Source: Candidatus Dormiibacterota bacterium
GTDB lineage: Bacteria > Chloroflexota > Dormibacteria > Dormibacterales > Dormibacteraceae
Direction: 5' to 3'
DNA length: 64,000 nucleotides
Assembly (NCBI GenBank): GCA_003169845.1
Contig: PNAG01000023.1
Span: 62,001 to 126,000, forward strand
Shown: piece by piece, positions 4,222 to 40,107 of the stretch
Position numbering within the stretch: the stretch's first letter is position 1
Layout of the letters: each line of letters starts with the position of its first letter
Notes under the pieces: generated by a model
Told to the model about the DNA's origin: nothing
What the model saw: only the letters and a program-made list of their open reading frames with translations
The model's database searches: none
Position numbers and translations under genes: made by a program

Positions 4222-5190
4222 ATGGAGGGTCCGTGGACGCGGAGCGAGACGAGCGCGTCGGGCCAGGTGTTCGAGTTCCGGCTGTGGGCTTTGCTGACAG
4301 AGCAATCGCGCGGGCAGCTGCACGTGTTCCTGCCACTGACCGACCGAGGGATCGACGCGCTGGTGCACCGGCTCGGCGACGGGGTGTATTTCCGGGTGCA
4401 GGCGAAGGGGCGATCGAGCCTCGCCGACGGTGAGGTGCACCTGGTCGTATGGGCGTCGGCGCTGCTGGACGACGACGCGTTGCTCGTGTCCGGGCTCGTC
4501 GTGGAGGGCGCTTTGGGACCGACGATTCTTGTCGCACCGGTTCGCGAGTTCAAACGGCTGGCCGACCTGACCTCAGCCGATGGCGCGCCTGTCTACTCGA
4601 CCGGGTTCGGGATGAAGCCGCGCTCGGACAGCCGGTGGCTGCCGTGGCTGGTGCCGGCGGAGAGCTTGGTGGAGCGGTTCGGCATCGCTCCGGCCGCGCC
4701 GGCGCTGGCAGAAGTCGTGGTCGCGCGACCGACCTGGCGCAGCGATGTCGGATTCATTGGAGAGTCCGAGGTGGTGCGGCTGCTGGCGGAGGATTCGGGT
4801 CTGAACCTGTTTCGGCCGTTTCCCGACCTGGAGACGTCGGAGCTCGGAGTGCTGCACCTCGAGAGCCGGAGGGTGTTGGGGATTCAGGTGAAGACCGTCG
4901 GGGTCGACGGCGCCCATCCGTATCCGACCGTGATGATCCTGGCATCAAGCTTCCGACCCTCGCCGGCCACCTACGTCGTGGCGCTGGCATGGCTTCGAGA
5001 CGAGGCAAGGTTCCACGAGGAATGCCTCCTGATTCCATCGGAGGATCTGCACCTGATCGCCCAGCCGAAGGTGTCGCACGGACACTTCGAATTCGACTGG
5101 CACCCGGGTTCAACGGCGGAGGGTCACTTGAACAAGTACCGGTGGGGGCTATACGAGCTGCGCCACCGGATCTCGAGTCTCGTCGGGTAA
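4222..5190 (+). CDS. Two-domain protein with duplicated PD-(D/E)XK-like folds
   Basis: A 322-residue soluble protein. Residues about 12-65 (GQVFEFRLWALLTEQ, then DRGIDALVHR, then VYFRVQAKGR) and about 180-230 (GFIGESEVVRLLAED, then DLETSELGVLH, then VLGIQVKTVG) repeat the same order: acidic helix, D in a strand, then Q-x-K at the end of the next strand. That is the pattern of the restriction-endonuclease-like fold. I infer two such domains, possibly nuclease or nucleic-acid-binding. The 3' end overlaps the convergent K+ channel gene by 42 bases. No closer family is recognised. Confidence 0.6.
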   Translation: MEGPWTRSETSASGQVFEFRLWALLTEQSRGQLHVFLPLTDRGIDALVHRLGDGVYFRVQAKGRSSLADGEVHLVVWASALLDDDALLVSGLVVEGALGPTILVAPVREFKRLADLTSADGAPVYSTGFGMKPRSDSRWLPWLVPAESLVERFGIAPAAPALAEVVVARPTWRSDVGFIGESEVVRLLAEDSGLNLFRPFPDLETSELGVLHLESRRVLGIQVKTVGVDGAHPYPTVMILASSFRPSPATYVVALAWLRDEARFHEECLLIPSEDLHLIAQPKVSHGHFEFDWHPGSTAEGHLNKYRWGLYELRHRISSLVG

Positions 5191-37910: not shown

Positions 37911-37986
37911 GGGTCCGTAGCTCAATTGGGAGAGCGCTTGAATCGCACTCAAGAGGTAAGGGGTTCGAATCCCCTCGGATCCACCA
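37911..37986 (+). tRNA. tRNA-Ala (anticodon CGC), CCA encoded
   Basis: Acceptor GGGTCCG pairs with CGGATCC and includes the G3:U70 wobble that marks tRNA-Ala. The D stem is GCTC/GAGC. The anticodon arm CTTGA-ATCGCAC-TCAAG gives anticodon CGC (codon GCG). The T arm is GGGG-TTCGAAT-CCCC. A T5 run follows 3 bases after the CCA and may help termination. Confidence 0.96.
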
Positions 37987-39196: not shown

Positions 39197-39661
39197 GTGC
39201 AATTTGTGGTAGTCCCGGACAGGAACAGCGCGTATACGTTAGGCATCAAAACCACCAACGGCGTTTACGTCGACGAACCCTACCTGTCGATTCGCTGGGA
39301 CGGGCTGCACCACCACGTCTACTCAGAATGGCACGCCTTCGCCAACAGCGCCGAGCTCCGGTCGGGCCTGCTGAGGGGCATCCAGGCGATCCGGGACAAC
39401 CACGCCGCCGCCTACGTCAGCGACGCCAGGAAGGTCAAAGTGATCGTCCACGACGACCAGGCCTGGATCAAAGAGAAGTGGATGCCGCTGGCCCAGCAGG
39501 CGGGCCTCAGGCGGCTCGCATTCGTAACCGCCCCGACCGGGCTGGGCAGGCTCACCATCGAAGACGTCTGCGGCCTGGTCGATCACAACGAGCTGCAATC
39601 CCGCACCTTCGACTCCATGGCCGCGGCAAGGCAGTGGGTCTCGGAGGCCCTGGAGAGCTGA
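39197..39661 (+). CDS. STAS/SpoIIAA-like protein, copy 1
   Basis: A 154-residue soluble protein. A beta-rich first part (YVDEPYLSIRWDGLHHHVYSEWHAF) is followed by helix, then YVSDARKVKVIVHDDQAWIKEKWMPLAQQAGLRRLAFV and LTIEDVCGLV. The alternation and the D-x-RK-x-K-x strand resemble SpoIIAA-like/STAS folds used in regulation. GTG start with a G-rich ribosome site. It overlaps the next gene by one base (TGATG), and the next protein is a clear paralogue. Confidence 0.65.
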   Translation: MQFVVVPDRNSAYTLGIKTTNGVYVDEPYLSIRWDGLHHHVYSEWHAFANSAELRSGLLRGIQAIRDNHAAAYVSDARKVKVIVHDDQAWIKEKWMPLAQQAGLRRLAFVTAPTGLGRLTIEDVCGLVDHNELQSRTFDSMAAARQWVSEALES

Positions 39662-40107
39662 TGGCTTCAGCGGTACTCGCGAGCGAGCTGTCCGGCGGTG
39701 ACCATGTCTACTTCAACCGCCCGGGCGTCGCGCTGGTGACATGGAACCAGGACCTGAAGGCGGTTTGCCTCGAGTCGCAGGGTTGGGCTGATACGAGCGA
39801 GGCACAAGCGGTCCTCGACGCCATAATCCGCGCCTTGAGAGCGCACCACGGTTCACGATGGCTGCTCGACGGTCGCAAGATGAAGGTCGTCAAGCAGGCC
39901 GATCAGGACTGGATTACCAAGAACTGGCTTCCGCGCGCGGCGGCGGCGGGCCTGAGGCTGACGGCAGTCGTTCAGCCCGCGAGCGGGTTGGCAATGACGA
40001 ACATCGACGATATGGCCAGGGTGTCGGAAAACGGTATCGACATTCGCTACTTCTCGACGGTCGAAAGAGCCGCGCAATGGCTCACGGACCCGCCCGCGGC
40101 CGCCTGA
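39661..40107 (+). CDS. STAS/SpoIIAA-like protein, copy 2
   Basis: A 148-residue paralogue of the preceding protein. It shares GVALVTWNQDLKAVCLESQGW (compare YLSIRWDGLHHHVYSEWHAF), LDGRKMKVVKQADQDWITKNWLPRAAAAGLRLTAVV and NIDDMARVSENGIDIRYFSTVERAAQWL. Start ATG inside the stop of copy 1. The listed longer frame from 39157 is the antisense-like out-of-frame extension through copy 1 and is not used. Confidence 0.65.
   Translation: MASAVLASELSGGDHVYFNRPGVALVTWNQDLKAVCLESQGWADTSEAQAVLDAIIRALRAHHGSRWLLDGRKMKVVKQADQDWITKNWLPRAAAAGLRLTAVVQPASGLAMTNIDDMARVSENGIDIRYFSTVERAAQWLTDPPAAA

Follow-up and report, generated by a model that had tools for sequence, protein, structure and literature searches.

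Two overlapping genes for divergent SpoIIAA-like, STAS-fold proteins in a Dormibacteraceae genome

The window analysed here, a stretch of 64,000 nucleotides from contig PNAG01000023.1 of a Candidatus Dormiibacterota soil bacterium, contains two small consecutive genes, A and B, that share one base at a TGATG stop/start junction (Table 1). The gene upstream is YdeI/OmdA-like and the gene downstream encodes an EamA transporter; a tRNA-Ala (CGC) gene lies at 37911-37986, approximately 1.2 kb upstream of the pair. The two products have in common the segments DARKVKV/DGRKMKV, DQAWIKEKWMPLA/DQDWITKNWLPRA, and AGLR, and they align with 33% identity across 129 amino acids (BLASTP, E = 4e-21), a similarity that places their paralogy far above chance level. 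The positions, the overlap, the shared motifs, and the paralogy given in the preliminary description were all recovered from the open reading frames and by BLASTP. Compared to a species of the same genus (G028), B gave a dN/dS of 0.17 and A, of which only the 3′ portion beyond a frameshift in G028 was compared, gave 0.10; these values argue that both coding frames are real. Comparisons inside A1 and inside B1, the subfamilies of the two genes, including A1 against G034 (0.22) and B1 against G030 (0.31), gave dN/dS values spanning 0.10-0.31, and judged from these ratios both genes are under purifying selection; the ratios for A1 against G030, calculated in a wrong reading frame, are left out.

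Table 1. Positions of genes A and B and of their shared sequence features in the window.
Feature	Position	Strand	Description
Gene A (A1 subfamily)	39197..39661	+	154 aa, GTG start; STAS/SpoIIAA-like fold; from ORF and AlphaFold2 model
Gene B (B1 subfamily)	39661..40107	+	148 aa, ATG start; SpoIIAA-like; from ORF and AlphaFold2 model
Stop/start junction of A and B (TGATG)	39659..39663	+	Stop codon of A (TGA) and start codon of B (ATG) have 1 base in common
A: D76-A-R-K-V-K-V after strand	39422..39442	+	Arg78 at D+2 position, which is Ser or Thr in SpoIIAA-type proteins
B: D70-G-R-K-M-K-V	39868..39888	+	Arg72 at D+2 position
A: DQAWIKEKWMPLA, start of helix alpha2	39455..39493	+	Family signature W.P.A..AGL
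B: DQDWITKNWLPRA, start of helix alpha2	39901..39939	+	Counterpart of DQAWIKEKWMPLA in A

Profile searches placed the two proteins at the edge of a known family. In Pfam, A had no match and B matched PF11964 (SpoIIAA-like) at 21.9 bits, under the gathering score of 25 bits, while a solo paralogue of B on contig C13 passed it at 29.6 bits. PF11964 was matched by 25 of the 50 aligned relatives (E up to 0.01), and this profile evidence ties the larger set of relatives to the PF11964 family, though A1 and B1 miss the Pfam threshold. Neither A nor B matched PF01740 (STAS), and a genome-wide search with that profile returned 4 other loci; likewise, NCBIfam gave no match for the pair, and no credible sequence relative was found in the PDB. 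AlphaFold2 predicted for both A (pLDDT 87.4, pTM 0.80) and B (pLDDT 89.0, pTM 0.83) a single domain whose strands and helices follow one another as in a STAS/SpoIIAA-like fold. The best PDB match of each model in Foldseek was RsbS (6jhk; E = 4.7e-4 for A and 1.7e-3 for B), and the search also returned SpoIIAA, other STAS proteins, SiaC, and the Shewanella DUF3478 protein 2q3l. The leading STAS matches had a probability of about 1.0 with modest E-values (4.7e-4 to about 1e-2) and low identity, and target-normalised TM scores against STAS anti-anti-sigma factors were 0.6-0.76. The fold proposed in the preliminary description is therefore upheld by the models and their PDB matches: instead of structures unlike STAS, both predictions matched STAS/SpoIIAA structures, and A and B are, as modelled, STAS-like by fold and not by sequence family. 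The PF11964 family (DUF3478; Sfri0576-like; Shewanella structures 2ook and 2q3l) likewise comprises small proteins with a single beta-alpha domain of the SpoIIAA-like type; the Dormibacterota copies differ from them by their D-x-R and W.P.A..AGL signatures. Although structures of this family have been solved, no function for it was found in the literature searched.

The genome carries 4 copies of the family, and within it A is most similar to a copy that stands alone on contig C4 (47%) and B to the solo copy on C13 (50%). The two genes are thus paralogues, as had been proposed, but not each other's closest relatives, and a recent tandem duplication is ruled out since each resembles a solo paralogue more than it does the adjacent gene. 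Trees separated an A subfamily (A1 and A2) from a B subfamily (B1 and B2), and two further copies, from G030 and G031, grouped together apart from these on the B side; the family is known, though its function is uncharacterised, and we regard A1 and B1 as new subfamilies within it. They form separate supported clades that hold the same genomes (the present one, G000, together with G028 and G030 in each; G034 has A1 and a B1 remnant), which suggests that the pair probably arose once in a common ancestor, from lineages that had diverged beforehand. A-type genes occurred only in genomes that also have a B-type or B-side copy. In a scan of the phylum, 9 of 301 genomes were matched, 7 of them inside this bacterial family and the other 2 weakly, so that within the phylum the protein family is almost restricted to this bacterial family.

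When the pair was looked for in relatives, its order and overlapping junction were found in G028, G030, and G034, which belong to the same bacterial family as G000; G028 is of the same genus and the other two are of other genera. The pair is known from these 4 species only, and at least G028 and G030 are metagenome-assembled genomes. The junction is TGATG in G000, G028, and G034 and a 4-base ATGA in G030, and the overlapping arrangement, retained in all 4 species, is probably translationally coupled, as proposed earlier. The YdeI/OmdA-like and EamA genes also flank the pair in G028 and are replaced by different genes in G030 and G034, which identifies the pair itself as the smallest conserved unit; a functional tie to these flanking genes was rejected on the same grounds. 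One partner is damaged in 2 of the 4 species. In G028, gene A is frameshifted by a single additional G within a short run of Gs (L041 ~4640-4760), and the codons past it are still strongly constrained, indicating that the change is either recent or an assembly error, possibly the latter. In G034, B1 has the usual TGATG start and an in-frame stop after 35 codons (MAKLVGEND...LQAV*; L014:617-740), followed by unrelated sequence and then by a DoxX/Rieske-like gene. The regular absence of one copy, which would weigh against a functional pair, was thus seen in part, as a truncated B1 and a frameshifted A1. Identity between G000 and G030 was 71% for A1 and 54% for B1, so that B1 seems from these comparisons to evolve faster, and B1 is without a Trp that 52 of 57 relatives keep; both features would fit a derived second subunit.

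The preliminary description raised the possibility that such a tandem pair acts as a switch. In SpoIIAA, the phosphoserine lies close behind a conserved Asp at a strand end. With this strand Asp as the landmark from which the residue matching SpoIIAA Ser58 was deduced, the alignment showed the Asp to be invariant in 57 relatives and the D+2 position to be Arg in 39 of them, including A and B; in 16, among them those of Bradyrhizobium and of some Bacteroidota, this position is Ser or Thr. At the D-x-S/T-G phosphosite motif, located at the start of alpha2, A reads D-A-R-K and B reads D-G-R-K, and neither protein has a Ser or Thr from the D+2 position to the alpha2 Trp. A study of Shewanella proteins sets the SpoIIAA phosphosite at the helix start (PMC2954212); placed there instead, the corresponding residue in A and B is likewise not Ser. 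Loss of the SpoIIAA phosphoserine is a trait that most of the PF11964 family and of the A/B group have in common. No kinase or phosphatase adjoins the pair in the window, as the preliminary description had noted, and in the related loci viewed there was no linked HATPase_c_2 kinase or PP2C phosphatase; visual inspection of the neighbours in Bacteroidota, Bradyrhizobium, and others revealed no recurrent kinase. As a control from the same genome, a STAS protein at C20:149047 reads VDSTGLG and adjoins a HATPase gene; this STAS and HATPase_c_2 locus (C20:148900-149900) is on the same contig as the pair, approximately 47 kb away, and holds the nearest kinase on the contig. A stressosome-like cluster of three STAS and two HATPase_c_2 genes on C17:52900-55900 resembles an RsbR/RsbS/RsbT module, and at least 3 of the 4 STAS proteins of the genome's canonical modules have Ser or Thr at or beside the expected place. 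Given the Arg at the phosphosite, the lack of an adjacent kinase, and the canonical STAS/kinase modules elsewhere, SpoIIAA-type phospho-switching by A and B is, on sequence grounds, unlikely, and this STAS-fold branch would have drifted from phospho-switching in this lineage. The anti-anti-sigma factors SpoIIAA, RsbV, and RsbS (PF01740) have the fold in common with A and B, which in contrast to them have no PF01740 match, no phosphosite Ser or Thr, and no linked kinase, at an identity of only ~7-17%. The fold is also that of STAS-like activators such as SiaC (e.g., 6kkp and 7e6g), an example of a STAS-like protein with a non-sigma target. SiaC is regulated through phosphorylation by SiaB, and, unlike the SiaC system, the A-B locus has no SiaB/SiaD-like neighbours.

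We favour, at about even confidence, the reading that the locus is a two-gene operon for co-translated, phosphorylation-independent SpoIIAA-like (PF11964/Sfri0576-like) STAS-fold proteins that are possibly hetero-oligomeric, an ordinary pair of genes that has received little study, and not a novel signalling switch. A1 and then B1, small cytosolic proteins each from a different old subfamily, would be co-translated, the overlap allowing balanced, co-translational synthesis. Phosphorylation would play no part in their action; they would instead contact other proteins and/or bind a small ligand close to the conserved Asp-x-Arg and the Trp/Pro helix, and would probably work in part as an A-B hetero-oligomer. 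Such a heteromer is possible, and coupled divergent pairs recurring in Dormibacterota give a concrete, testable clue to hetero-oligomerisation.

It is also quite conceivable that A and B, members of a family expanded in this lineage, are co-transcribed but each function alone as a homodimer, with adjacency providing shared expression and no heteromer. Copies of A or B type commonly stand alone, B2 doing so in most family-bearing genomes, and the related Shewanella SpoIIAA-like proteins are dimers of a single protein in solution (PMC2954212); the damage to one member in half of the pair-bearing species points the same way. However, the order and overlap persist across genera despite changed flanks, and purifying selection acts on both genes. 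The stronger form of a heteromer, in which A1 and B1 make up an obligate, phosphorylation-independent hetero-oligomeric STAS-fold module assembled co-translationally with B1 as a derived regulatory subunit, would give Dormibacterota a STAS pair of an uncharacterised type, but we consider it doubtful, since the damaged partners, the better conservation of A1, and the lost Trp of B1 speak against strict interdependence. For the Shewanella proteins a role as CRAL-TRIO/Sec14-like carriers, membrane-associated and binding a hydrophobic ligand, has been proposed, with aromatic lid residues in helix alpha3 forming the predicted membrane anchor (PMC2954212). The same role for A and B, to which the PF11964 link, the structural match to 2q3l, and the conserved Trp in helix alpha2 would lend themselves, is improbable, since in both A (TIEDVCGLVD) and B (NIDDMARV) helix alpha3, read by eye, looks polar without aromatic lid residues, and the models match true STAS proteins at least as well as they match 2q3l. 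Similarly improbable is that A and/or B are anti-anti-sigma-type partner switchers phosphorylated by an unlinked RsbW/RsbT-like kinase: the fold is identical in kind, RsbS is the top structural match, and HATPase_c_2 kinases and STAS proteins occur in the genome, but the canonical modules own their STAS proteins, and A and B have neither an acceptor residue nor a linked kinase here or in the relatives viewed.

The literature yielded nothing relevant on tandem pairs of STAS paralogues, and clustering was seen in other genomes of our set. An overlapping pair of two A-type genes has arisen independently in G031, and A and B2 lie tail to tail in G006. Several Bacteroidota genomes have 2 or 3 copies in tandem, which resemble the coupled pairs of Dormibacterota and indicate that paralogue clustering is not special to the A-B locus. 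In a Flammeovirgaceae genome, three SpoIIAA-like genes stand in tandem (L060:4416-5755).
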